From the NCBI RefSeq assembly GCF_949628265.1, contig NC_088789.1, positions 21,817,883 to 21,881,882 of the forward strand: a stretch of 64,000 nt of DNA, written 5' to 3'. The DNA comes from Cloeon dipterum (Eukaryota > Arthropoda > Insecta > Ephemeroptera > Baetidae). Positions 27,391 to 60,600 of the stretch are shown piece by piece; the stretch's first letter is position 1, and every line of letters begins with the position of its first letter. The notes below the pieces were generated by a model. It was not told where the DNA came from and did no database searches. It saw only the letters and a program-made list of their open reading frames with translations. The position numbers were made by a program, and so were the translations under genes.

Positions 27391-28684
27391 TTACTTCTTG
27401 GCAGGAGCAGTGGTTTCAGTCTCAGCTTCATTCTGATACAGTTGCCGAAGCTCCTGCTTCTTCTGCGAAATCCTCTCTTCCCTTCGCTTTCGTGCCGCCT
27501 TCACCTTCTGCCTGCGGGCCTCAGCCTGGTCTGTCAACATCTTTGTGCGAGTCTTCTCTGCCTTCTTCTTATGGATGTACTCCATAAGAACACGCTTGTT
27601 TTTGAAGACATTACCCTTTGCCTTCATGTAAAGAGCGTGATAGAGATGCTTGTCGATTTTCTTAGCCTCTCTATATTTCTTAAGGAGGCGCCTAAGCACG
27701 CGCATTCTGTCAATCCACAATTGTTTTGTGGGCATACGGGCGTTGGCTGTGCCCTTCCTCTTTCCATGGCCGCAATGCCTGCCCTTTCTGCGGGCCTCCG
27801 TGTTCTTGCGGACGCGCGCCCTGGAGTGCACCGCAACTGGCTTCTTGATTATGAGCCCATCCTTAATGAGCTTACGAATGTTCTGTCCTAAAATTTAATT
27901 CAAATTAGAATCGTTCCCTTGGCAGCATTGTAAGAAAACACTTACTTGAGTTTGCATTGGCAATCTCATTAATCTCGTTTGGATCCAACCAAACTTTCTT
28001 CTTTCCGCAGCGCATAACCGAAGAGGCAAGCCTCTTCTGTAGCTTAAGGGAACTGAAATTAAAAAAAACCCTGATTAGAGATCATTTCATCTTTACTCTC
28101 AGCATTCGGCATGAGTGATGACAAAATATTGTGAAAGACACTGATAACAGACATCGCAGCCTGACAATGGACTTTTGAATTGTACAAAATACCATGGAAG
28201 ACTCGCACTTTCGCTAGGATAGGGCATTTTACATTGATTTTTCCTGTCAGAGGGCGATAAGTAGTATAATGAGTGAGCGGAAAGCGTGAGTCCCCTATTA
28301 TGTATCATACAATACCATAGTTTTCAATGCATGTTTACAAACATACACGACATACACTTTGTAAATAATAAGCAATCCATCTGCCAGAATTTCGACATTA
28401 TCAATTTTTAATCGAAGGCATTTCAATAGAGAGATTCCCTTGGTCCGTAAAGTTTAGCGTTTATCAAACGAAATAAATAAATTTGGGTTGATTTCGACAA
28501 TCGCAAAGCGCATGGCTATGCCGGGCCGATTGTGGATCAAAATATCCACCAATTTCACCGCAACTAGCACTTTTATCGCGAAAAATCGTCTGACAGACGG
28601 TATAATCAATTGATTCAGATTGACTATAAGTGAAATAGTACTCAAAAAGTCTATAAAATAGAAGAAATAATATGCTCACCTCAT
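27391..28684 (-). CDS. RpL19: 60S ribosomal protein L19 (eL19), copy A
   Basis: Structural protein of the large ribosomal subunit. Three coding exons: 28684-28680 (only ATG plus two bases), 28052-27946, 27887-27391, giving 202 aa with the usual eL19 length and order. It opens [15 protein letters not shown], then [52 protein letters not shown], and a long basic C-terminal helix ending TETTAPAKK. The intron right after the start codon is typical of this gene. The 5' leader has a pyrimidine-rich CTTCTCC, as expected for a TOP mRNA. An intact second copy lies about 2.2 kb upstream on the same strand; both retain introns, so neither is a retrocopy. Confidence 0.97.
28440..28560 (-). ncRNA. Conserved block in RpL19 intron 1 (candidate intronic ncRNA or enhancer)
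   Basis: Intron 1 of copies A and B has diverged, but this block and its counterpart at about 30680-30800 stay alignable. In copy A the minus strand can fold an ACAATCG/CGATTGT stem around a GC-rich core. Ribosomal-protein introns often host snoRNAs. I could not place convincing C/D or H/ACA boxes, so the RNA assignment is speculative. Confidence 0.2.
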
Positions 28685-29755: not shown

Positions 29756-30926
29756 TTATTTCTTAGCAGGCGCGGTGGTGGCTGCCTCAGTATCATAAGA
29801 TTGCTGAAGCTCCAGCTTCTTCTGGGAAATTCTCTCCTCCCTTCGCTTCCTTGCTGCCTTCACCTTCTGCCTGCGGGCCTCGGCCTGGTCGGTGAGCATC
29901 TTAGTCCTGGTCTTCTCGGCCTTCTTCTTGTGGATGTACTCCATAAGAACACGCTTGTTTTTGAAGACATTACCCTTTGCCTTCATGTAAAGAGCGTGAT
30001 AGAGATGCTTGTCGATTTTCTTAGCCTCTCTATATTTCTTAAGGAGGCGCCTAAGCACACGCATCCTATCGATCCACAGTTGTTTTGTGGGCATACGGGC
30101 ATTGGCTGTGCCCTTCCTCTTTCCATGGCCGCAGTGCCTGCCTTTTCTGCGGGCCTCAGTGTTCTTGCGGACGCGCGCCCTGGAGTGCACGGCCACCGGC
30201 TTCTTGATGATAAGCCCATCCTTGATGAGCTTACGAATATTTTGCCCTAAAATTTAATTCAAATTAGAATCGTTCCTTAGGCAGCATTGTAAGAAAACAC
30301 TTACTTGAGTTGGCATTGGCAATCTCATTAATCTCGTTTGGATCTAACCAAACCTTCTTTTTGCCGCAACGCATCACCGAAGAGGCAAGCCTCTTCTGTA
30401 GCTTAAGGGAACTGAAATTAAAAAAAACCCTGATTAGAGATCATTTCATCTTTACTATCAGCATTCGCATGAGTGATGAGAAAATATTGTGAAAAGCACT
30501 GATAACAGACATCCATGTGCTCATGGGCTGCCTGTCAATAGACATTTTTTATTTCTGTACCTTTAGACATTTAAATTTTTCAACGCATGTTTATGTATGT
30601 AAAATATACAATCGATCAGCCCGAATAACTACATAATATTCAATTCAAATCAAAAGCATGTACTCATTGGAAAAATTCACTTGGTCCGTAGCGTTTAGCG
30701 GTTATCATACATGCGAAATAAATAAAATTTGGATGGATGGCGACAAACGCCAAGCACATGGCCGTGCCGGCCCGTGTTTAGACCAAAATATCCACCGATT
30801 TCCCCGCAACCAGCACTATTATCATGGTAAATCTTTCTTCGACGGAATAATCAATCGATTAAGACTGACTAGAAGCAAAATAGTACACAAGAAGTCTTTA
30901 AAATAGATGAAAAATACTCACCTCAT
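29756..30926 (-). CDS. RpL19: 60S ribosomal protein L19 (eL19), copy B
   Basis: Tandem paralogue of copy A with the same three-exon structure: 30926-30922, 30411-30305, 30246-29756, giving 200 aa. The protein is almost identical to copy A, except for the residue before HSRARV region context and the extreme C-terminus ([21 protein letters not shown] versus copy A's two-residue longer tail). A 128-bp coding stretch (29931-30058) is identical to copy A (27572-27699) even at silent positions, and the short intron 2 is nearly identical, while adjacent coding DNA and intron 1 differ. The reading frame and splice sites are intact, so both copies are probably functional. Confidence 0.96.
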
Positions 30927-31836: not shown

Positions 31837-33245
31837 TTTATTGACATATCATATTATCAGTTTCTTACAGTTACGCTGGAACTGTAAGGTTTAGTTTAAA
31901 GTGGAATGATACAGGCCAAAAATTGAAAAATATTCGAATTATTGTTGGATGCCATACCAGATTTCAAGTAAGGAGACAGCCATTACCATTTGAAAAGCTT
32001 GGTAACTTTCCAGCCAATTTTCTCAAAAAATTACAGCGCTTCTTAGGTAAATTTAGGCTTTAACTGAATCCTAAGAGACGAGTTTATGCATAGACAACAA
32101 GCATTTTCCAGGCTTTTGGCTTTTCCAGTATCATTCCTCTTTAATTTCCCCTGGTCCCGGTAAAATTGTGCAACTAACTTTCAACAAACAATCGCGAATT
32201 TCCTTGTTGCAAGAAAAGGTTGAATTCAACAGCGAAAAATTTGTTGAAGCAGATTTTGCCACCGTGACCAGGAAGATTTACAGTCTAATTAAAACTATTT
32301 TTAAAATGATTGTAAATTAGAGATGTAACAATAATATGAAAGTCGTCACTAGATCTTTAAATTCACAAAAATGTGAAAATCAAAACCGGCTTTTTCAATG
32401 TATAATACGTCTTGGTGCCGTAAATAAGTGATTTTCACGAAACGAAAACTATAAAAAACGCCACTCAAAAATGTTCTCAAGAAGTCGAGACAAGTAATTA
32501 TAAACCTGTGAGTCTCTGTCTCCATTACATCAACCTAATTACAAAACTGAGATCCTGATATACGAAATATATTCGAAACGAAAAGCGACAACAAGAGTGG
32601 CGTTGTTGCAGTTAGATTCAATTATGAGCACTCGGTCCTAGCAGCAAATAATGGCATTTCAAACTGCTTAAATTTTAAAAAAGAAATAAAAAAATTGGAG
32701 AAAAGTATATAATGTAAGTTCATGCCATGTTGCTGGAACCATTCAGTCGCGAGCGTCAAACCTAATCTACATTCCGTTAAACTAACTAATAAGAAAAATA
32801 TTTACATAGGAACTTGATACATGGGTAACAAAAAAGCGGACATCTTGTCAACTGGGAAAAAGGTCTGGATATAATTTACAAAATTTTTAGTTGATTAGAC
32901 CATTTCCATTTGGGATTGCACGTTCAAGAGAGAAAAAAAATGTCCGCGTTTTTAATCTGGCAAAATTTATTGCCGAAAAAAATATATTTGGGTGTGTCAC
33001 CATATTTAATCTCGGTTCATGAGCGCTTTTTCACAATGAATATGTGTAAAGAGACAAAATTAGGTAAAAAAATTTACACAAAGTGAACCAATACACAAAA
33101 ATACTCCTAATTGAGAAGACGTCGAACTAGTGAAGGTGCTTAACCACTCAAATGGTCGTTTTAAAAAGTTCCGAAGCTTAATTTTTAGGTGGGGTCACAC
33201 TGGCACCAAATGAGTTTTGAGCGAAGTTTTCAGAGTGTAAAGAGA
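31837..33245 (-). other. 3' UTR of the THAP-MYND gene with poly(A) signal
   Basis: A minus-strand AATAAA at 31842-31837 is the best terminal signal after the stop codon at 33248-33246, giving a 3' UTR of about 1.4 kb. No further coding exon fits. Confidence 0.5.
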
Positions 33246-36200
33246 TCAAGCAGCCTTTGACGACGGCGTATTTGAAGAGGTCTTGGGGGTCTTCTTGGGC
33301 ACGCATTGAAGTTCATGTCTTTCCCAGTCATCTTTCTACAACAAGTAAAAGAATGCTATTAACACCTGCAGAAAAATCTAACTTCAGCGGAAAATTAAAA
33401 TTTGATAACAACCGAAACTATTTTTATGCAACACTATCTATGTAATCAGAGATTGTAGTATTTACTTGGCATTGTCGGCTGCAGTAGCGTCCTTGGCGAC
33501 AGTTACCGCACTCAAACTTAGCCGGTTTTTCATCGCACCTCATGCACATCTCCACCTTGCCATCTGACCTCCATGGCTCACTCGCCGTTGGATCGTCAAT
33601 AACTAGATGGTCACTGTCAAAGTCACCACACAGCCTCTCCACCTGAAACACAACCGCAAGAAAAACTCAACTTTATGCCATCTATGTAAATTCCATTAGA
33701 CAAAAAATCCAACTTTCCATACTTAGAATAACGTGTTTGGTGCAAATAAAAATTACTATTGATTAAAAAATAAAACATTTATCGGTTGTACAAAAGACAT
33801 AAACGGAATTTAGGATACGTACAGTTCTTTGAGATGTTCCCTGCTTCTTGGAGAGTTCTGTTGTGGGGTTTGTGACAGTGATGGTGAGCTCACTGTGGGC
33901 CTAAAAGCAAAGGTGCATGTGTTAACAAACAGAACAGGGGCGTGCGAGAACTTAAAATAAAAGCCTAAAATTCAAAATGTAATCGTGTCTTGCCTTAGCT
34001 GCCCAATAAATTAAATTCATGAATTAAATTTAATTAAATTCAGCATTGCCTTACAACCCAGTTTTAGTAAAATTATTAAAAAAGAAATCAATTTATCTAT
34101 TTGTTCCTTAGTAAAATTCCAACATTTTAAAGACTTAAAAAATCAACCAATTTTAAGAGTAATAATTTCAAAATGCTCTTCCTGAATCAATTTGGACTTA
34201 ATTTTCATCCTACGTACTCATATAGCTCAAGTGGAGGTCAAATGCAGAGATTACTAAAAAAATTATTATAAAATATTAGTGTAACACTGAATTTTTCAAT
34301 CAAATCCCTGAAACACATGATTACCCAAAAAATGGTTCATGATTTTCAAAATTGCAAGATGTTGTGCACGGAAAATCCTTTGAATAATAAAATACTGATC
34401 TATTTTCAATGCATGCCAGTGAATTAAAAAAACAAAATAGAGGTAAAGGCTCACCTTTGAGGAGCCAAGTAGATCGGTGATGGAGACGTTGTGGTCAGCC
34501 GCTAGGTTGGGGATGGGCATGTCACTCAGCCGGTCGCCCTGGTGGCCTGGCTTCTTGGGCTCAGTCAACAACTGCATCAAGGTGGGCGAGTTGTTGTTGG
34601 CCAGGACGGTGTTGCCAGGCGTTTTGGTCAAGATCTTCTGCAGCATGGGAGTGGTGGCGGGATTGACCTGTTGCGGCAGTTGGTGCAAGGTCACGTCAGG
34701 GTAGCTGTGTAGCCTGCGACTCGCTTGGCTGGACATGGGCCCGCAGGTTGATTGCATTCTGTTGTCAATGCGGCTCTGGATAGCAATTCCTTGCAGAATG
34801 TTCTGGAAGTTCGTGTTAGGATCCATCGTTGGCAGGGCGATGGTGCTGCTGTTGGCACTGGTGGTGGTGCTGCTCTGTTCTCGGCGTGGCATCCTGCGCC
34901 CCTGACGTGGGATTTCATCTGGATTGTTTCGCCTGGAAGTGAAAAATTGGTTGTTACTATACGGAGAGGAGAACCACGGTCATTAAATGAAGTCATTTTG
35001 AAAACATTTTGTGCCTTTCTAAAAGGAAAAATAAACCTCTAGATGGAGTGGGGAATTTTTCCAAAAATTATTTATAAAAACTGGCTGAGAGATTAAAAAA
35101 TACATAAAAAAACTGCGGTTTGTTGATATTAAGGTTTGCATATATTTTTTTAATTATTTCAAAACTGGCCTAATCACAATCTTGGAATTCTAGAAAAATT
35201 ATTTCCCATCTTAAAACTAATATGTCTTATCTGAAGAACAAGAATTCTCTTGTATTTTTTGGAGATAATAAAAAATAAATTGCCGAAGGTATTTATTATT
35301 ACCTATGAGTAGCGATGATATGGGACGCTTTGATGATGGGTCCTTGCCGTCCCTCACCGATGGGCAGTTGTTCCTGCAGGCCATTTGCTCGCGGCTTCAT
35401 GGACAGTGGGATCAAACGACGGACGTGTGCCTTGTCCAAGAGCTCGCTCTTCAAGCTCTTCTGGCTGATGTAGCTGTACAGCTCAGCCAGCTTGCAGGAG
35501 ATCACCTGCGTGAGGCTCTCCACCTCCCGACTGGTGTTTTCGATCAGCCGGTTGATCTCTTCCGGAGATCGAGCTTTGTCGAGGATGGCATTGATCTGCC
35601 GTTCCCGACTGTCCGTGAGGGTTTCGCCGTTGCTCAGGCGAGAGAGTTTGGCATCACTCTCGGAACTGCTCTGCCTGTGGGTGCGCTTCAGGCGGGATGA
35701 CGGCTTCATCCTGGGGGCCGCGTCCTCCTCGTCGGATCCACCACCGCTTGAACCAGCTTCGGCTTTCATTGAAAAATGTGCAGTCGTAAGTGAAAATGGA
35801 TATTACTTAGCATTGTGCGCGTTGGCCAAGGCCAAGCTGAGAGGCAGCTTGGTGCAAGGAGAGTGATTCGAAAAAAGTATCAAGCTGCCGTGAAAGCATA
35901 AAAATAAAATCATGGGCAAAATTAGAAATTAAATTAGTATTTAAGCACGCAAAAAATCTCAAGATGAGTTTCAAGATTTAAATTTCTTCACTGGTATTTT
36001 TAAAGAAATTTAGTTTCTCATTGCGTGAATGAGTTGGGAAAATTTTATATTTTGTGTGTTTAAAGGCTGGTTGAAATTAATTTCGACAATTTTCAACGCA
36101 GGAAAAATGGAAACTATAGAACGGAGTTAATAACTTATGTAAGAAATTTAGCTGAAGCACCACCATGGCCAACACGTGTGTTAATACTGTGAAGGACGCG

Positions 36201-39200
36201 AACAGGTGAAACAATGTCGTGTTCTATAAACACAGACGGCATTTGCCTTTGTTTGACCTTTGCGAAAAACAACTCACCTGGCGGCGATATGTGGCCAGCA
36301 GCGGTGAACTCGAGGGGCTTGGCTCCCTCGTCGAACTCAACGTGCACGAGAGCAGCTGCGGTCCTCGCGACGGTCTCCTCGCTGATGATGGAGTCGCAGC
36401 GTTCTCCACCTTCGAGTTGCTGCTGGGGGGCGGCCTCCTCCGCGGCCTCCTCGCTCTCTTCCTGTGCAGGCGGTTGCGCCGCCTGATTTAACGGGCTCAC
36501 TCCCTGCATTACGTGCGGCCTACGAAAAAGCAAAAAATCGGACTCAGTACTCGCGACAGTGAAGTCCGCGGCGCCCCGTTCCGAAGGGCGCAGGCGCACA
36601 CGCACCGCTCGATACTCTAGCTAGCTTTCTCGGCTCGTGTGTGCCCTTTATTGCACATTATTTTTTGCCGAGGGTCGCGCGGATTCCGCTCGGACCTCCA
36701 CTGGAGCCTCTGTGCTCTCACGGTGGCACAGGAGACGGAAATAATTTAATTTTATACAACATGCAATGATTTGTTGGTGGTTGGGAGGAACAGTGAAATT
36801 TACTTGGGAGCAACAGTTAGTTGTTTCACAGAAAAAATCGAGAGAATTAGGCACCGCAAATATTTTGCCAATTTTTTTTAAATTATTCAACGTTCAAAAA
36901 GATTAAAAATTAATTAGGAATTAATAAGATTAAATAAGAATTGTGCAGAAGATATGATATTAAATTTATCTCAACAAGTGAAACAAAATAAATGCCTCTT
37001 TTATTAAGCAAATTAATGTAATATAAACTTTTGCTTTGCAACACACTAACCTTACAAAAACACGCAAGGATTGAAACGTTTCAACAATTTAATGACTTGA
37101 TATGGAGAAATAAAATAAAAATGAGCAGCGCAATAGTTGAATGTTCGTAGCCTGGCTCAATAAATGTATTTAATTTTACAATTTTCGCAGTTTGGAGAAC
37201 TTAATAAAAATTTCCATGGAAAATTATAGGTTGGGAGGAAAACTATAATTCGTTGAATATTTAACTGTGTTTATATATTTAAATACAACAAATCTGAAAG
37301 TGTAGCAAAATGGGGTTGTGAAATTAAGGCACTTTTAGACTAAAATTGTTTAGTTTTTAGGCAGTTTTTTTTAGTTTAATTTTGCCAGAAAAATAGGTGC
37401 ATTAATAAATTTTTCATCCCATAAATATGTAGGTTGCAGAACAGAAATTTAAACATTTTTTAGAATCATTGACGTGTGTGAAAAGCAATTTTAAAATCTA
37501 CGCGAGGTTCATTGTTTTGCGAGCAAGAAATGTGAATAAAATCAATGTTTACGCATAATTATAGTCGGCAATTTGAAAAAGAGTGCAGTTATCAATGCGC
37601 CTTCCCTTGTTTCCAAGTGAGATAAGCAGCAAAGTTATTTGCAAGACGAGAGGTGCGTCAAATGCACAGAGGTCTAGCCCGACGCAACGGAACGAATTTA
37701 TCTTTCTTTGGGAGGGCGAGTAGCTGTGCACCCGGCGCGCACGAGACGAGCATAATATACACACAATAATAATAAAAATGCAACAAAAGATAAGCGAGCG
37801 AGCGAGCGAACGTCTCGATCCAGCGGGCGTCGAAAGTGGGCCAGCAGCCGAAACACGATCAAGACGCGCGTAAAGGAAGTGAGAGAGAAAATCGGGCCCG
37901 GAGAATTGGGCCGAGCGGCGAGGTGAACGACCTGCTACAGGTAGAGCGCGCGCGAGAGCGTGACGCCATCGGGTTCAATGACCCCGTCACTGCCTGGCGC
38001 GGGGTCAGAGGTCAGCGGCCGCGGACCCCGCCGGGGGGTGAGCCCGAAATATTTTCGAGGTGCAACGTCAGACGCATTTGGCACGACACGTGCCGTCTGG
38101 AAGCACGTATATATTATGTACTTTGGCCGGAACTCGATTTCAAACGCTCGGCACCCCTGCGTCCCGAGGTTGTCAAAATCGCCCAATTTTCCAGTCCGCA
38201 GACTGGTTACTGGCTCGCCTTGACCAATAAACAAAACCGCGGCTGAAAGTGAATTTTGCGCCTTATTCGCAGCAACGCCTTTCGCAAATGCGGCCAAAAC
38301 AGACATCACCCCGTTTGTACGTGCGAACCCTTTCCCAGCATAATTGTCCGAAAATAAAACAGGAAACCCCCTGCGTTTGAGACCCCCTGAGGCGGATTTC
38401 GCCTGCCACGCGTGCACCCTGACTCGCTCGACCTCCTTACCCCCTCCCCCTCTCTAACAGAACGAGGGTTCGTCTCAGGGGGCGGCAATCAAGCCCCTAT
38501 CTCACCTGAACAAAAGGAGACGGTATGACGCATGCAGCTCCGCGAGCGCAAACTGCTGCTTTGGCTGTTGTGTGCCAGCGAGCGCGAGCAAAAGAAACTA
38601 GCTATAGCAGCTTCGGGAGACTGCCGCTGCAGCAGCGCCCGGCGAGGTCCTTGACATAGCGGCCAATGACCCTCGTAGAGTGGAGCCGCGCACAAATCAC
38701 CCACACCGACTGTGTTCGCTGTACTGCCGGGGCGGCAGCAGGGTACACCGACCTCTCACCTAAACGGAAATGCCGGAATTCTTTCGCGCTACTTGCCTCG
38801 GGAATTTTATTTAAAAATCGGATTTTGCTTGAACGCAAAAATAAAAGAACGACGTAATCGAAATCAAGAGAAGGTAGTTGTAAAAAAAATAAATAATTCT
38901 TCTCTATCTTTAGAAACAGTTTAAACCGTTCTCACAGCACTTTCACTCGAGCTGCATGCATTGGCTACAATGAGTGGCATAAGGATAACCTATTCGCACG
39001 CATGCTTGCCGCACTCTCCTTCTCGCAGCTAAATAATTATCTCTTTGCGTCGCAGGCAAGGAGACGGGAGACGACAAAACGCACACTGCGCTTATGGGTT
39101 GTGAGACGAACAGGAGACGAACATAATAAATATTCTCCTTATCTTTCGTCGCGTGTTGCAAAATTCATCAGTTGTTAAAAAGGTGTCCCCTATACTGCAT

Positions 39201-40715
39201 ATTTTGGGGATGCACAGTAAAATATGTCATTAAATCTTTAATAAATTCTTAATTTTCTACTGATAAGCTATCTCGGAAGGCAAAAATGGAATTAAAATCA
39301 GTGTTTAACATTTATGTTGTACTGGGAATATAGCTGCTGAAAATCGAAGCACAAATCGGGACAAAGAGCGGTTGAACAACGTGGTAATTTGAATTTTTTT
39401 CGTGCCTTCCCCGAAAAGAACGGAAAGGCAATTTTATTGATTATATATTCACAATCATCGGAAATTGTGCAAAGGCAAAAAAAGACATTCAAATAATCAA
39501 CAATATTTTCAAAATATTCTTACCCGTTGAAGAAGGGGCTGTGCGGCGCTACCCCTGGCGCAGGCAGGAAATTCCGTGTGAGGCCCAGAGCCCCGCAGAA
39601 TTCTTCCTGCGACACGGTAGAAGCGTCGGAGCTGGCCACTGAAGAGATTGAGGCGGCATCGGGGCTAGTCAGAGGCAGCGTAACAAGAGGCGAGTTCGCG
39701 CCAACCGTCTTCTTGAGCCCCGACTTGAAGCCAACCTTCCCGTCATCACCGCTGCGTGGCGCTGCGCGTTGCGGTGGGCCCCATGATTTGGCCTCTTCAA
39801 CAAGAGAGGGCACTACGAACGGGCAGGACAGGGTTGGAGTGCAGCCTCTCAGAAGTCGACGATTGGGAATTTCTTTGTTCCCTGGAGAAGAGTTGGCTCG
39901 CGGAATGATCACATAATATCGACGATCAAAATGTTTGGAACAGATCCTGCACGAAACAGAAAACAAAGGCACGTGGTAAAAAAACGGCGGTAATTATTTC
40001 GTTAGTTTTCAAGTAGTTATACGTTACGGGCAATGCAAACACCCCTAACAAACATTTACAAGGCTGTATTGCCATGCCACACACTAACGAGCTCATCATC
40101 TGCCTCTCTTTTAATACAAATTTATTTTAATAAATTTGGGCTGGTATCCCACCTAACACAATTTGTATTTTTTAAATTTATCTGAAGAGTTAAATTAAAT
40201 ATTTTATTAGGAGTAAACACCAAAAATAAAATAAAATCAACGGTAAAAAGATACGAAAGATACAGAATTGCTTTTCATACTGCAATCATTTTGCCAAACT
40301 TCGTAACAGGGATGCTGCACACGAATTGGCGCCAGAAATAATTAAAAGAAAAATAAATTTTAACAACATCCTTCCATCTATTTTTTTGCGGCTGATCCTT
40401 ATTACCGCATTTGGGCTCCAAACTACAACAAATAAAAAAGGACGTGCCGAACTTGAAAATTGTTAACCTAAGGCCGCGCTGCACTGCTTGACTTTTTTGG
40501 TATATCATACACGCAACGATAATCATAAGAAAATAAACTCACCGCGAGGTTTCGTCGTTGAAATCGCGGCCACATGCTTTGATCCAGTGTCCCCTTACCC
40601 TGGGGTCTTGTGGGAAACGATGATAACTAATCCTATCATCAGGATTTTCAGGGATGCCATCTTTTTTCGTTTTCCTGTGTGAATTGTTACATGTCGAGAC
40701 GGCGCACTGAGGCAT
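33246..40715 (-). CDS. THAP-domain and MYND-finger protein
   Basis: Probable DNA-binding transcriptional regulator, inferred from its domains. Eight exons with matching phases: 40715-40543, 39946-39524, 36519-36278, 35762-35303, 34932-34455, 33900-33823, 33642-33466, 33335-33246, giving 706 aa. Residues 1-90 are a THAP zinc domain (MPQCAVSTCNNSHRK; ligands C4, C9, C60, H63; HRFP; W44; CTPTL in place of the AVPTIF box). Exon 3 is rich in Glu/Gln. Exon 4 has Ser/Lys-rich sequence and a probable helix (about 347-385, EINRLIENTSREVESL). Exon 5 is Gln/Thr/Pro-rich. Residues 651-688 are a complete MYND finger (C651, C654, C663, C666, C672, C676, H684, C688; ending KDDWERHELQC). THAP binds DNA; MYND usually recruits corepressors through proline motifs. 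I know of no named family with both. The 3-kb intron between exons 2 and 3 is the weakest join. Confidence 0.82.
36520..36760 (-). promoter_or_regulatory. Candidate internal promoter before exon 3 of the THAP-MYND gene
   Basis: GC-rich, CpG-containing sequence lies directly upstream of exon 3. Exon 3 has an in-frame ATG (MQGVSPLNQ) within its first codons. A transcript starting here would make a THAP-less, MYND-only isoform. No TATA box was found. Confidence 0.3.
37790..38860. promoter_or_regulatory. GC-rich island with ecdysone-receptor-like sites in the THAP-MYND intron
   Basis: A CpG-rich block of about 1 kb in AT-rich DNA. It contains an IR1 site GGTTCA-A-TGACCC at 37972-37984, matching the EcR/USP palindrome, a DR1 site GGGTCA-G-AGGTCA at 38002-38014, and a degenerate IR1 (AGGTGA-A-CGACCT) at 37921-37933. 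Open frames here (for example 37836-38246) look like by-products of GC content. It could be an enhancer or an alternative promoter. Confidence 0.4.
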
Positions 40716-40815
40716 CGTGGTGTGTATGTAGGGAGCAGGAGCGTCTCACGTCTTCTCACGACTGCTGCTACACGCGCACTGAACTGACACCACTGAGCGA
40801 GAGGCTGATATATAG
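40716..40815 (-). promoter_or_regulatory. TATA/Inr promoter of the THAP-MYND gene
   Basis: On the minus strand CTATATAT lies at 40815-40808 and a consensus arthropod initiator TCAGTT at 40787-40782, with the A about 30 bp from the TATA. This gives a 5' UTR of about 70 nt to the ATG at 40715. Confidence 0.6.
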
Positions 40816-41106
40816 GGAAGCTACACGCACTCTTGCGTTGAAGCCGGGGGTAGGTAGGTGGTGTCCTCTGCTATGCCTTGCTGTTGCTCCTCCGCTTCGC
40901 GTTCTTTTTCAGGCAGCCCCTAGAGAAAACAAGGTCTTTGCTTGTAACTTACAATACGCATTATTCGACGGACAAATTCCCAACGCTGGTAAAACATCAT
41001 GGTAGGGTCCCTTACTCTGTAGGGGGTATCTGCGTCGGAACACAACCAAGGTTGCAAGGTTGACGAGAATTATGGACTCGTTTCTGAAAAGTTTTGAATG
41101 GAACCA
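40816..41106. other. Upstream flank of the THAP-MYND gene
   Basis: No gene seen. The stretch around 41004-41060 resembles 41785-41840 and may be the outer part of the duplicated segment that follows. Confidence 0.35.
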
Positions 41107-41451
41107 ATTTGAAAGGAAATATATTTTTGGTACTTTTTGTCACGGCGTGTAACCAAAATCATTTGCAAGGGCCCCGTCAATTTTAAAGATTTTTCATTTC
41201 AAACGTACGTTCTAATGAGTGTACAAACCAATATTTTTATTTATTGTGTTAGAAGCTTTTGGATCAGAAGACAAAACGTTGAAAAAATTAGTAAAACATT
41301 TTATAAAGCAGAGCATTGAAATCCCCCGATTTTCTAACCTAAAATTACTTTATAATTGTGACCACCAGACCAGCCTCGTTTATTTCCTGTAAAAGAGAAT
41401 GGGAATATTAGTCAATTTTTATATATTATGTAGGATAAAAAAATTGTTTGA
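41107..41451 (+). repeat. Duplicated segment, copy 1 (uninterrupted)
   Basis: It is closely similar to 41898-42230 and continues into the sequence right of the hairpin element (43856-43874). It includes the undisturbed target sequence TATTATGTAGGATAAA. Non-coding. Confidence 0.85.
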
Positions 41452-41897
41452 TAATCACTTCAATATTTGTGCAATGAAATCAATTAAAATGCATTTTACT
41501 TTAAAATCAGTGTTTGACATTTTATGGTGGACATGGACAAAATCAAAAAGCAAAGAAAAGGCAAATATAATTGTTTTTCTCCTGACCACGTAGAGGGAGC
41601 AGTGTTTTCTAAACGAAGCAAGACGAGGCTTGGCGGCAGGAGAGCAGCTACCTTTTTTGGGGTTGGTGTTGGTGCATAGCTCTCTCACGTTCATGCTACT
41701 CCGTACCAATCTTTTTCCTCTTTTGCTACACAAGGCCGGTTTTCTGCCGCGTGACTAAATCACATATGCTCGAAAATCAACAAAGGGTCCAAAACCCTCT
41801 GTAGGTATAGGGTATACAATGCACGTCGCAATATTTTACCACCCAAGGATCAATTCAAAAAAGATTCTGGGTACCTTTGAAGAATTATGACAAGAAA

Positions 41898-42230
41898 AAA
41901 TTTGAAAGGAAATATATTTCTCCTGCTTCTGTCACGGGGTGCACCGGTGCAACCAAAAACATTTGCAAGGACCCCGTCAATTTTAAAGATTTTTCATTTC
42001 AAACGTACATTCTGATGAGTGTGGAAACCAATATTTTTATTTATTGTTTTAGAAGCTTTTGGATCAGAAGACAAAACGTTGAAAAAATTAGTAAAACATT
42101 TTATAAAGCAGAGCATTGAAATCCCCCGATTTTCTAACCTAAAATTACTTTATAATTGTGACCACCAGCCTCGTTTATTTTTCCTGTAAAAGAGAATGGG
42201 AATATTAGTCAATTTTTATATATTATGTAG
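41898..42230 (+). repeat. Duplicated segment, copy 2 (interrupted by hairpin element)
   Basis: Second copy of 41107-41451. It is broken at TATTATGTAG by the 1.6-kb hairpin element and resumes as GTAGGATAAAAAAATTG at 43856. Confidence 0.85.
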
Positions 42231-43855
42231 GGAAGGATCCATATTAAGTGAACCCCTGTTTGGCAAGTGGTCTTCAGATCTTGATGAAATTCGGTGGAGA
42301 TGATGCCCTAGGGAACCTAAGTTAAACCCTAAAATATTAGGTCAAAATTCCAAAAATTGTTCATTTTACAGGGGGTCAAAGTTTGAGATTTTTGAAAAAG
42401 GTGATGTTTTTGGCGATTTGTAACTTGGACTCTGTTTATAGTAAACACAAATATTAGGTATCCAAAATATTTTACGTTTGATGCCAAACAACTTTCCCAC
42501 GATGACCAACTTCGTAGGTCAAAGGTCAAGGTCACTAAATTGGGGTCAAACTTTTCAAAAAAATCCCACATACCCAAGTACATAAAATTTGGGAAATTCA
42601 AAATAGCCAAAATGTGCCTCATATCCATGGTAACAACATATAAAAAATTGGCGATACATTTTTTTTTCGTTTTCGAGATATTTTGAATTGAGTGTTTAAA
42701 ATCGATGTTTTCCGGGTCTTCTGATCATAAATAAAAACACGTTTTCCGCTTAATCTCAGCTTCTATGGGTCCGATTTACAAAAACCGCACACCGTTTGAT
42801 ACGTAATGACCTCCCCTAGGTAATGCAAGTGATCATAAGGGTGCCGACCCCCTTCGAACCCTTAACCACCCCCTGGAAATCCGAAAAAATTATTTTTTCA
42901 TATTTTTAACCTCTATCTCGACAAATTAAGCGTGACACCAATCAAGAATGTCCCAAAATAGTTACAATAATAAATATTATTATTTTCTTTGTAGAGGAAA
43001 CCTTCAAAAAAAATTGCTAATATGAAGATGGTAAAAAAAATTTAGGGTTATTTTAAAAATAGCATTAAATCAGGTTTTAGTTTATTCAAAATAACTTGAT
43101 TAACCTTCATTTATTAATATTTTAAAAATAAATTTAATATTTCACACTGTTCTTTTATTATTATAAATAAATGCAACCACTAATTTATGTGTAACCATCA
43201 TTATTTGGTGCATATTGTGTGCAATTTCAGATATTTGAATTGCTTGCATTTATTAATTTTTTGTTAAAATATTAATAAATAAAGGTTAATCAAGTTATTT
43301 GCGGTTTTTGTAAATCGGACCCATAGAAGCTGAGATTAAGCGGAAAACGTGTTTTTATTTATGATCAGAAGACCCGGAAAACATCGATTTTAAACACTCA
43401 ATTCAAAATATCTCGAAAACGAAAAAAAAACGTGTCGCCAATTTTTTATATGTTACCATGGATATGAGGCACATTTTGGCTATTTTGAATTTCCCAAATT
43501 TTATGTACTTGGGTATGTGGGATTTTTTTGAAAAGTTTGACCCCAATTTAGTGACCTTGACCTTTGACCTACGAAGTTAGTCATCGTGGGAAAGTTGTTT
43601 GGCATCAAACGTAAAATATTTTGGATACCTAATTTTTGTGTTTACTATAAACAGAGTCCAAGTTACAAATCGCCGAAAACATCACCTTTTTCAAAAATCT
43701 CAAATTTTGAACCCCTGTAAAATGAACAATTTTTGGAATTTTGACCTAATATTTTAGGGTTTAACTTAGGTTCCCTAGGGCATCATCTTCACCGAATTTC
43801 ATCAAGATCTGAAGACCACTTGCCAAACAGGGGTTCACTTAATATGGATCCTTCC
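42231..43855. mobile_element. Hairpin transposon, 1.6 kb, 4-bp GTAG target duplication
   Basis: The termini are perfect inverted repeats starting GGAAGGATCCATATTAAGTG. The arms run to about 42790 and from about 43297 (roughly 560 bp each, few mismatches) around a 500-bp AT-rich loop. GTAG flanks both sides, and the duplicate at 41107-41451 has a single GTAG at the empty site. Each arm carries the AGGTCA-A-AGGTCA-AGGTCA array (42516-42534 and, reversed, 43552-43570). It encodes no protein. Superfamily not assigned. Confidence 0.9.
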
Positions 43856-43875
43856 GTAGGATAAAAAAATTGTCC

Positions 43876-50461: not shown

Positions 50462-51862
50462 CAAAATGCTTAACAAACGTTTGTATTCCTCTCTAATCAG
50501 CTATATTCCATTAAATCAATTCGGCTTTATTAAAGGGAAATCTACTGTACAAGCTGTAAATTTACTTATTTAACATATTCACTCAACAGTAATTGTAAAT
50601 AAGAGACCCCTGTACGCTTTATTTTTAGATTTACAAAAAGCATTCGATTCTATTAGTAGAACATTTATCTTTAAGAAAGTCGTAGATACAAAAATCTTTT
50701 CTTGTGAAGAGCTAAACTTGCTTGCAGAAATTCTTGACGTAAATTTTCTATTAATTAATGATGGTATTTCCGTTTCTGAAGAAATTTTACAGTCAAACGG
50801 GGTTAAACAAGGAGGGTGCATGTCACCCTTCCTGTTCATTTTTGCTATCAGTGATATTAACGATATTATGAAAGATTTCCCTGGCGTTAAATGCATTTTG
50901 TATGCAGATGATATTGTACTTTTAAGTGAAAATTTAAATGATTTTTCCATTTTACTGCCCAGAATTACAGACTACCTAGCTATAAGATGTTTAAAATTAA
51001 ACGAAAAGAAATGCCAAGTCATGAAATTCAGAGCCGGTGGTCATGGTCGTTATAGCAAAGTAGATTTGAACTGGGAAAAACAGAATAAAATTACCTTCTG
51101 CTCTTCAATTAATTATCTAGGAGTCACTTTCCAAACTGCAGGTGTATGTTTTAGTAAACATATTGATAAGAGAGTTAAAGCCTCAATATTTGCTACAGGC
51201 AAAATTAAAAATTTGTCAAAAAGTTCTATTGTTACAGCCAAAAAATTATTTGATTTAGCTATTTCTCCTGTTGCCTCATATGGTATTGAAGCTGTCTGGA
51301 AATACTTGACTTTAAAGGACTTAAATAATCTTGAATGTGCTAAGTCTAGATTTTTTAAGAAAGCCTTATGTGTCGATAAGAGAATGAAATCAAGATTTGT
51401 ATATGATCTAGTTGAGACTGATTATTTTGTAAATGACTTAAAGACAAAATTCTCCCTGCCGGACACACCTGTTTATATTAAATTCTTGGATAATATGATG
51501 CATAAAAAACAAAATATTCACCCTAATTTTTACAATACCCCAGCTATGACAAACAAGAACTGGTGGCTACCCTATTGTAAAGATCGAAGTGTTTTTACGA
51601 GATACTCTTTCCATGGTTATCATTTTCTGTTATGTAAAGACAAACGTTTCCATCTAGATGTTTCTGCTAATTGTGTTTGCCAATTCTGCGATGAAAGCGG
51701 TATAGACATGTATCATTTCCTCAATTGTAAAAATAATACAACTACCTTATTTCAAGCTGCTAAATATAAGAAATTGCAGTTAAATAATATCGTTATATAA
51801 TGTACTCTGTGTTGTACACCGTTGGTGTCTAATATAATAATAAATAATAATAATAATAATGG
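50462..51862 (+). pseudogene. 5'-truncated non-LTR retrotransposon (LINE) reverse transcriptase
   Basis: One frame runs from about 50462 to the stop at 51798-51800, interrupted by a single in-frame TAA at 50571. It contains reverse-transcriptase blocks in order: NQFGFIKGKST, LFLDLQKAFDS, GVKQGGCMSPFLF, and the catalytic YADD (about 50901). These are followed by thumb-like sequence and a C-terminal CQFC...H...C zinc-like motif. The 5' end, including the endonuclease and any ORF1, is missing. After the stop come about 40 bp and a TAA microsatellite tail (to about 51862), typical of LINE 3' ends. The clade was not determined. Not functional as it stands. Confidence 0.85.
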
Positions 51863-57645: not shown

Positions 57646-60600
57646 CACGTCTAAAAAGCATATTAATTGAAGAATGCACAGTAGCTAGATTGAGTCTGAA
57701 ATCGCAGCGGAAGTGCCTTAAAATTGAAAGTCTACGGTGGCGCCATCTGTTGGTGGCTTCGAACACTTAGGGTTTATGCAAGTGGTCAATTTTTAGTATT
57801 AAGTGCCGTGAGAAACGAGCATCAATTAAAATTCTTCTATCTAGCGTAGCTTACGAATAACAGAGCTGCAAAGATTTCCCAAGTAGTGTTCTAGTGGTAA
57901 AACAAAAATATCATCAAAAGTGTCCGAAAATGTTTGGTTTTTTAAAATCCGAGCATTTTTCGAAAAGTAATACTATTTTTAACAAGTTAATATTTTTAAA
58001 ATTTTCTTTTCTTTCAAAGTACCATAACTTCAGACGCATACGTACCATTGGCTAATTTATCATCTTTTGAATTCTCCTATTGTTGTAGCACACAATGTGT
58101 CCTTTTGTCTAGATGTTTGTAAGAATTTTTCCTTGGTGCATATTGCATATTTGGTCGCACCAGGATTTTTTTTAAACCCAGGTCATTGAGCTTTAGAGAA
58201 AGCTTCATCCCTATTGACACAAAAAGATGACAAATTGCTTTGTTCAGGATACCCTCTGCTCTACACTCAACAGGGGGGGTGCACCTCTTGATTTTTTATG
58301 GAAATTTTTATAGTTCTACCTTGTTTATCCGTTAAGAAAAAAGCATCAGTCATTTACTTTAGTTGAAAGACTATTGTGTATATGGTACGCGATTTTGGGT
58401 TCCTATTGAAAAATTCCTTGCGCTGCTGTACCTATTGAAATCGGCTGCTGGCAGCAACCTTGAAGAACGAATAATACAATACCTAAACTGCATACATGCA
58501 CTAAAAAGCGGTGACTTCGAACCAGGAAATTGTTAGTAGCCCGCCGAGCGAAATACATCCCTATGCTGCTGGAAAAAATCGGCAAAAACGGTCTGATCGG
58601 CGCCAAACCCGGGCGGTCGACGAACGGGGGTGCCAAAAATGAAGTTTCCGATGGTCAAAACCACATTCATTCCCATAGGCAAATTAATAAAAAAAAAATC
58701 AGAAGAAAATTACTCGATTTTTCGGAGTCGGGGGTTGGAGGGGGAGGACGGAGGTGGAAAATTAGCCTATCTTACGCAGAATTGCAGAATTTTGTCCCGA
58801 GTCCGGGGAACACCGATAAAATTCTGATTTATTATTAAAATTTTATATCAATTCTTGTGCATTTTATGCTGTTCAATGTCGATATCCACGTGTGTGCGTG
58901 ATGGAGCTCTGGATCTGGAGCCTGCTCGCGGAGTGGTTTTGCAAGCGCGGCGGCGTTTCCCGCGCTCACAACCTTGGTCAGCGTGCCAATAGTGCACACA
59001 GCACAGCGTTCTCCATTTCTAGGGTGATCACCTTGACTGTTTTTGCAGTTGCAAAACTACAAACTAGATAGGCCGCTGCGCGCGTTTATCGGCTACTCGA
59101 CTCTCTGCACGATACATTAAAAACACCATTTGACCGAGAATGCACTGAAATGCATTCGTCCCCATAATTTGCGAAGTTGCTGACCTCAAGCAATGCGTAT
59201 TACGACTGGAAACAACAAGTCCAAGTGGTTGCGTGCGTTTAGAAACTGCGCGACGGTCATGGACGCATTTTATATATTTACTCTCCAAATCCGAATGTTC
59301 GAGAATCGAGAGGAGAGAAGCGTCGAAATAATATAGCAAGAGCGGAGCACAGAGCTTGGTCCACAACGGGGGTGCACCAGCGGGCTTACGCTTGCCTCCC
59401 CTTTTGTACCCTCCTCGCACCCCAAACGCGCACCCCCCTAAATGTACAGGATGCCACACACGTTTCTTAATTTTTAATCCAATCTCTGGGGGCTTCAAAA
59501 GAGGCACCGAGCATGAACAACAAAAAAAAATTCAGTGGCCGCTTCCTTTGGTGAATAGGCTCAGGTATAGTTTGTAACAAGCGAGCAGGTGGTGCGTTTC
59601 TCAGGTGTGCGCAGTTGGCCGAGCGGTGTGCTTTTGAAGGGATAAATATGAGAGAGCGTTGCGTGGCTGATTTGCCTCTTTACTATGCCTTCCCTGCTTG
59701 TGTGGTCAGTCTCAGGACAATGCCAACCATTCTCGCTGGCGGTTATCATACCTCCAGAAAAACCATTTATCTTTATTTTTTTTACCCTCAAAAGGGCTGT
59801 CCAGGGAATTGTTTATTTTAGTTTATTCTGTTTCCGGCTTGGGATATGTTTTGATTCAAATGCATGGTCGGCATGGTGCGGATGGGGTGCGAAGCATTAT
59901 GGTCGTTATTGCGCATTGCATCCACTGCGAGCTTGTTGCCCACCGCTTCGCTGTCGCCATCCAGGGGGGGTGCATGCTCAATATGGGGAGAGAAAGTCGG
60001 TGGTGCGGCCTTGCAACCCTGTTCCTGCTCTATTGTATGGCTGGCTATACGCAGTGGTGTTTTTCTCCTTTAGCTACGCATTCTACATCCCCCCTGTCGT
60101 GTTATTGGAATAATAGGCGAGGCGAAGCAACTAGCCAGCAAGTACGCCGGTAGAGGACTCCGGGACACTTTAGAAGCGGTGCGCGATCTTTTTCCTCTTT
60201 CCTCTCTCCTCGCCGGTGCATTGGTTGAGCGTTGAGCCGTCGCCGTACGCCATCTACCGTCGAAAAAGCGAGGTTTTACACGGTGCCCTAGCGGACTGGA
60301 AGGGAGTTGTGGCGCGCTCCGAACCACTCCGAACTCTCGCGGCCTCTGACGGAAGGCGTGGGAACAGAAATTCAAATAATCGATAAAGTGGTAAAGGCGC
60401 AGCACGGAATTCGTGTAAGGATAGAAGTAAAAGAAGGAATAAATTGGATTTGGAATTTGATCGATGAAATATTCGATGGCTCACAGGTGTGCATTGCAAA
60501 TCTAATAAAAGGCTTGCTGGCACCTTATTGATTTTCCAAGGCTGCTGCCGAAGCGCTTCACATTAGTGGGGCGCACTACACCCTTGCGAAAATAACGAAA

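Follow-up and report, generated by a model that had tools for sequence, protein, structure and literature searches.

Predicted Gene Structure and Domains

The present analysis concerns a gene predicted on the minus strand of a 64,000-nucleotide (nt) stretch of the Cloeon dipterum genome (contig NC_088789.1, positions 21,817,883 to 21,881,882; hereafter the window, numbered from its first base), the product of which would carry a THAP domain at its N-terminus and a MYND finger at its C-terminus. Between an ATG at 40715 and a TGA at 33246 lie eight exons with GT..AG borders and compatible phases, and their joined translation is a predicted protein of 706 amino acids (aa), in agreement with the eight-exon chain proposed in a first-pass annotation of the same DNA. 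Judged on its sequence, the THAP–MYND gene model is real and well-formed, and the gene probably a single one.

Both domains are complete, as that annotation had claimed. The THAP domain (PF05485) spans residues 4–97 (E = 2.6e-14; 54.2 bits against a Pfam cut-off of 23.9; profile positions 1–86 of 87) and retains all four zinc ligands, C4, C9, C60 and H63, together with P35, W44 and F64. The MYND finger (zf-MYND, PF01753) spans residues 651–688 (E = 1.8e-7; 31.5 bits against 22.7; the full profile, 1–39 of 39) with eight of eight ligands: C651, C654, C663, C666, C672, C676, H684 and C688. As profile matches, both exceed chance. Among solved structures in the PDB, THAP2 is the sole significant relative of the THAP part (E = 4e-5), the matches to 2jm3 (E = 0.05) and THAP11 (E = 0.24) being non-significant, while for the MYND part the best match is SMYD2 (E = 5e-6), followed by MTG8/CBFA2T1 (E = 1.6e-4) and DEAF1 (E = 3e-3). 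The remainder of the protein gave no significant Pfam or PDB match. Five Pfam families were listed at E ≤ 1, the program's filters discarding most matches above E 0.1, and SAND, SET, TAFH/NHR, PHD, bromo and PWWP were not among them; IQUB (E = 0.11, aa 330–385), the ZMYND11/8 MYND model (11.7 of 27 bits) and zf-Mss51 fell below their own cut-offs. Since their defining domains are not among these five families, the protein lies outside the definitions of SMYD, DEAF1, MTG8 and ZMYND8/11, and the earlier remark that no named family fits is upheld at the level of Pfam for the corepressor-binding MYND families.

Exon 1 (40543..40715, aa 1–57) carries the THAP ligands C4 and C9 and gives on its own a six-frame THAP match above the cut-off (36 bits). 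Exon 2 (39524..39946, aa 58–198) completes the THAP domain, with C60 and H63, and continues into a Ser/Pro-rich linker. Exon 3 (36278..36519, aa 199–279) is rich in Ala and Glu and has an in-frame ATG ten bases in (M203), a start at which would give a MYND-only protein of 504 aa. The beginning of exon 4 (35303..35762, aa 280–432) is acidic and Ser-rich, and a long predicted helix follows at aa 346–395; exon 5 (34455..34932, aa 433–592) is rich in Ser, Thr, Asn and Gln. After the short exon 6 (33823..33900, aa 593–618), MYND ligands 1–6 fall in exon 7 (33466..33642, aa 619–677), and H684 and C688 in exon 8 (33246..33335, aa 678–706 and the stop). In a single-sequence AlphaFold model of exon 4, helices were placed at exon residues 33–43, 48–62 and 66–115, the last being the long helix; the predicted local confidence (pLDDT) was 85–97 for residues 51–100, yet the mean was 67.6 and the predicted template modelling score (pTM) 0.35, so that overall confidence in the model is low.

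TATA and initiator motifs were used in the promoter scan. A putative core promoter of the THAP exon occupies 40782..40814 on the minus strand, with a TATA word from 40814 and the initiator TCAGTT from 40787, 27 nt apart, and the predicted 5' untranslated region (UTR) would be about 70 nt long. The minus strand has three TCAGTY/TCATTY words from 36300 to 41100, and only the one before exon 1 is properly spaced from a TATA word. At the other end, an AATAAA at 32966..32971 (minus strand), 275 nt past the end of the coding sequence, is a candidate poly(A) signal for the whole gene. CpG dinucleotides are depleted in the 3' half of the gene, with observed/expected (o/e) ratios of 0.22–0.75 in the five 250-base windows of 34001–35250, and mostly not in the 5' half (36–41 kb, 0.51–1.56). 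The depletion fits what would follow from gene-body methylation.

Splice Sites and Intron 2

The THAP and MYND halves of the predicted protein would be joined across intron 2, of 3.0 kb. Splice sites were scored with position frequencies typical of insects, which were not fitted to this genome, and each was given a percentile relative to the full set of minus-strand GT or AG sites in the window. Against 3105 GT sites the donor of exon 2 (39524) reaches the 99.61st percentile, and against 3458 AG sites the acceptor of exon 3 (36519) reaches the 99.86th; across the whole of intron 2, including its end, only 38505 and 36519 score 7 or more as acceptors. The junction 39524/36519, which had been singled out as the doubtful border of the model, is thus formed by high-ranking sites, and the weakest border is instead the acceptor of exon 4, AATGAAAG at 35762 (score −3.3, 69th percentile). 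The donor of exon 3 is the best in the model (99.97th percentile), and middling ranks (90th to 95th) fall to both the acceptor and the donor of exons 6 and 7 and to the donor of exon 4. On balance, exons 1–8 probably form a single transcription unit.

Within intron 2, position 38505 has the form of a ratchet point, TTTTGTTCAG|GTGAGA, at which an acceptor (7.54) directly abuts a donor (7.03). A weaker donor, GGG|GTAAGG (5.15), lies 65 nt downstream at 38440, and the two would define a putative recursive-splicing (RS) exon at 38441..38505 on the minus strand, retention of which would end the protein at 199 aa. No other AG|GT site on either strand of the window has both halves scoring at least 5. 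The site and its weaker downstream donor match the layout of the Drosophila ratchet points in PMC8605326, the cryptic RS-exon being recognised and then skipped, with the ratchet donor generally the stronger of the two. In random sequence such pairs occurred at 0.0015 and 0.0030 per intron (about one and two sites in 2,000,000 bases), and in a second run at 0.0004–0.0008 per intron (one to two sites per 8,000,000 bases at each of three compositions), where none of the chance sites had a weaker downstream donor; at the intron's own composition the two runs gave 0.0015 and 0.0008. Because a pair of this type is rare in random sequence, the ratchet-like site favours a genuine intron here.

Intron 2 also contains a CpG-rich block at 37501..38750. 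Only four of 253 overlapping one-kb windows have a GC content of at least 0.50 and a CpG o/e of at least 1; three of these, mutually overlapping, lie in this block and the fourth at 59751. A TATA-like word occurs at 38113, and the block has no TCAGTY/TCATTY initiator. A transposon origin was considered for the block and is unsupported: 37600–38800 matches only itself in the genome, in a search that passes over simple repeats and highly frequent words.

Genome and Neighbourhood

With the spliced protein as query, the C. dipterum genome (190 Mb, 10 contigs) yielded neither a retrocopy nor any paralogue of the gene body, an intronless copy being something that would have proved the join of exons 2 and 3. 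Matches at E ≤ 1 numbered 16: the eight exons of the gene itself, seven weaker ones at the MYND end (E between 9e-4 and 0.07) and a single match to exon 5 (E = 0.9). Six-frame searches gave at least 29 THAP and at least 14 MYND matches at E ≤ 0.001, counts that are lower bounds and do not list the window's own MYND finger, split as it is between exons; the nearest THAP–MYND pair among the listed matches is 0.82 Mb apart. If 29 THAP and 15 MYND domains were placed at random, about 0.009 same-strand pairs of THAP followed by MYND would be expected within 7.5 kb, a figure that assumes random placement where the real one is not random, and that concerns a pair noticed before it was tested. For exon 5 (159 aa), pattern matches in the genome_contigs and viral_contigs collections (34 and three, respectively) yielded no confirmed relative, as expected of an animal gene. 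No Rfam family matched the window at its gathering score. Among the six-frame THAP matches, three share an identical score of 8.4e-4 and two a score of 5.5e-4; such equal-scoring groups would be as expected of THAP domains carried on repeated mobile elements.

Several other features lie around the gene. Two neighbouring ribosomal protein L19 genes, at 27391–27894 and 29756–30253 on the minus strand, appear beside it as a tandem duplication, their main coding exons near-identical and their C-termini different by eye; the first copy was matched to eL19, with 4v6w, a Drosophila structure, as its closest PDB chain. Just upstream of the predicted promoter is a direct repeat of about 350 nt (41085–41434 and 41878–42231, spacing about 800, pieces 76–100% identical). 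Further upstream, a large inverted repeat (42228–42800 and 43289–43858, arms 98% identical over 408 nt and 96% over 166 nt) looks like a foldback or terminal-inverted-repeat element. On the plus strand, an open frame of 408 aa at 50574–51800, with a YADD motif recognised by eye, reads as the reverse transcriptase of a retrotransposon lacking long terminal repeats (non-LTR).

Discussion

The reading we prefer, and hold to be somewhat probable, is that of one arthropod gene encoding a 706-aa nuclear regulator, in which the THAP domain binds DNA and the MYND finger recruits a cofactor, with THAP-only and MYND-only proteins as possible further products. THAP domains read DNA, and MYND fingers dock cofactors through peptides that contain proline. 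From the features described above we infer a single transcript whose product would bind DNA, recruit a cofactor and repress, as well as the short products. Transcription would start mainly from the TATA/initiator pair ahead of exon 1, and removal of intron 2, perhaps in two stages by way of 38505, would bring exons 2 and 3 together. The N-terminal zinc finger would then bind a specific DNA site, the helical segment at aa 346–395 may pair the protein with itself or with a partner, and the C-terminal MYND finger would keep at that promoter, by its proline-containing peptide, a cofactor that is most likely a corepressor. If intron 2 was left in place, or the cryptic exon retained, a THAP-only protein of 199 aa would be made, and a start at M203 in exon 3 would give the MYND-only protein; either short product could oppose the full-length form.

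The MYND fingers of DEAF-1 and ETO bind peptides of SMRT and N-CoR, with an affinity in the millimolar range for DEAF-1, and the groove that does so in DEAF-1 includes Met512, Glu514, Thr516, Gln529 and Trp533 (PMC3555993). In an alignment made by eye to the DEAF-1 sequence, three of these five residues are kept, with E662, Q677 and W681 in the places of Glu514, Gln529 and Trp533. With Glu, Gln and Trp kept and Met and Thr changed, the groove matches in part, and repression would be a likely activity of the predicted protein. An analogy with MYND proteins that recruit corepressors had been drawn in the first-pass annotation; the part that stands is the general MYND groove, while kinship with that family does not, since SMYD2, ahead of MTG8 and DEAF1, is the closest solved MYND finger, and the analogy therefore rests on the groove.

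A number of observations weigh against the preferred reading. Two of the five groove residues are changed in the same by-eye alignment (Met512 to K, Thr516 to G), and the 706-aa protein contains neither HCF-1-binding, PxLxP, PxDL[ST] or WRPW-type motifs nor any Lys/Arg run of three or more. The exon 2 donor, CGG|GTAAGA, holds an in-frame TAA, so that the unspliced form would encode only the 199-aa THAP protein, and an AATAAA 85 nt past this donor (39433..39438, minus strand) could be its poly(A) signal. The CpG-rich block, with its TATA-like word, might be an internal promoter, and the donor half of 38505 could serve an alternative first exon instead of a ratchet point. The cut-offs of 7 applied to the ratchet site were set after 38505 had been seen, and the genome shows hardly any enrichment of ideal ratchet words (six, against two of the reversed word and three and two of altered words). 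Phase would also be preserved if exons 3 and 4 were both skipped, so phase alone is no proof of these two exons, the second of which has the low-scoring acceptor already mentioned. The G+C content at third codon positions (GC3) is 0.49 in exon 1 and 0.59 in exon 2 against 0.72, 0.72 and 0.74 in exons 3–5 (exons 6–8: 0.54, 0.56 and 0.50), and codon usage ranks the assigned frame first among the six in exons 3–8 but not in exons 1 and 2, for which it was uninformative as a test of linkage.

Three other arrangements of the locus can be considered in this light. The first, a variant of the one-gene explanation and compatible with it, is a single locus with two promoters, giving the full THAP–MYND protein and, from the CpG-rich block, a THAP-less isoform. 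We regard it as a tentative but real possibility. It can draw on the splice evidence at the exon 2–3 junction in addition to the points that would favour two genes, taken up below, and the suggestion made earlier that GC-rich DNA before exon 3 may drive a THAP-less isoform is sustained to that extent by the block and by M203. The block, however, has no initiator of the type searched for.

The second arrangement, which we consider unlikely, is that of two neighbouring genes: a THAP-only gene of exons 1 and 2, ending after 199 aa at the stop in GGGTAAGA at 39522, and a separate MYND gene starting within the CpG-rich block (37.5–38.75 kb), with a 5' UTR exon spliced to exon 3 from a donor at 38505, 38440 or 38759 and translation from M203. 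The stop that closes exon 2 and the AATAAA beyond it would suit a terminal exon, but such an exon has no need of the strong donor found exactly at its end, nor need exon 3 be phase-compatible with exon 2; moreover, AATAAA is common on the minus strand, and with eight in the 8.6 kb scanned the one at 39433..39438 is not unusual. Likewise, the CpG-rich block, the TATA-like word and the donors within intron 2, the ATG so close to the start of exon 3, and the GC3 of exons 1 and 2, unlike that of exons 3–5, all speak for a second gene, but the block is without a TCAGTY or TCATTY initiator, a first-exon donor at 38505 leaves the acceptor half of that site unexplained, and an exon ending at 38506 would hold, by eye, two upstream ATGs with short reading frames.

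The third, that the exon 3–4 border is wrong, and that a further exon or an internal start at exon 4 (candidate ATG just before 35762) divides a gene of exons 1–3 from a MYND gene, appears very improbable: the acceptor at 35762 is the lowest-scoring in the model and intron 3 has a TATA word at 36049 and TCATTC at 36032, but at 17 nt these lie closer together than such pairs usually do, the exon 3 donor, very strong as it is, must have a partner, the sites listed in exon 4's open frame as far as 35690 include no acceptor of higher score, exon 4 shifts the phase from 1 at the end of exon 3 to the 2 needed by exon 5, and a CTTAC word resembling a branch point and a run of T precede 35762.

A bolder proposal goes beyond the single THAP–MYND gene and seems doubtful, namely that it represents a previously undescribed THAP–MYND class of arthropod transcription factor, the halves of which would be united by recursive splicing of a short intron, with opposing outputs from the one locus. 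If this was true, joining the halves would give a full-length repressor, keeping the cryptic exon or the intron a 199-aa THAP-only antagonist, and starting internally a 504-aa MYND-only decoy. THAP proteins and MYND fingers have each been well studied separately, and their union here combines known parts in a new way without amounting to a new kind of system. If real, the fusion would be an instance of domain shuffling in which the THAP domain took part, and its product, like DEAF1 but with another DNA-binding domain, would read DNA and carry a docking site for cofactors of its own. Recursive splicing, a process known mainly from introns of great length, would be extended to one of 3 kb if intron 2 is spliced in this way. 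We know of no named THAP or MYND family in which a DNA-binding THAP domain is joined to a MYND finger. In the open-licence papers found to mention both, the relevant passages describe no protein with the two domains; the families are named separately, for the most part within lists of genes, and the "THAP" of PMC13234162 is thapsigargin. A literature search for the residue pattern of this THAP domain found no match. An uncharacterised orthologue of the same architecture may well be on record already.

The known systems that come nearest share parts of this design. The predicted intron 2 resembles the Drosophila ratchet points and RS-exons of Ubx, kuz and Bx, as presented in PMC8605326, in its abutting acceptor and donor, the weaker donor downstream and the stop that would follow retention of the cryptic exon, but it is 3.0 kb long, where the Drosophila introns extend over tens of kilobases. 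The predicted protein has in common with THAP regulators an N-terminal C2CH THAP domain and a helical segment further along the chain, and differs from them in carrying a C-terminal MYND finger and no HCF-1-binding motif. That motif is [DE]HxY, and the THAP-domain regulators include human THAP1, THAP2, THAP7 and THAP11. On the MYND side, the SMYD methyltransferases provide the nearest finger in the PDB (SMYD2), but SET is not listed here; MTG8/ETO/Nervy and ZMYND8/ZMYND11 (BS69) likewise use a MYND finger to dock proline-containing motifs, but their TAFH/NHR, PHD, bromo and PWWP domains are not listed, and the ZMYND11/8-type model scores far under its cut-off. DEAF1 is similar in its overall plan, a DNA-binding domain placed far N-terminal of a C-terminal MYND finger; in the C. 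dipterum protein that domain is THAP, with SAND not listed, and the finger is nearer to that of SMYD2 than to that of DEAF1; the two would be alike in function if the MYND finger described here binds peptides of the N-CoR/SMRT type.

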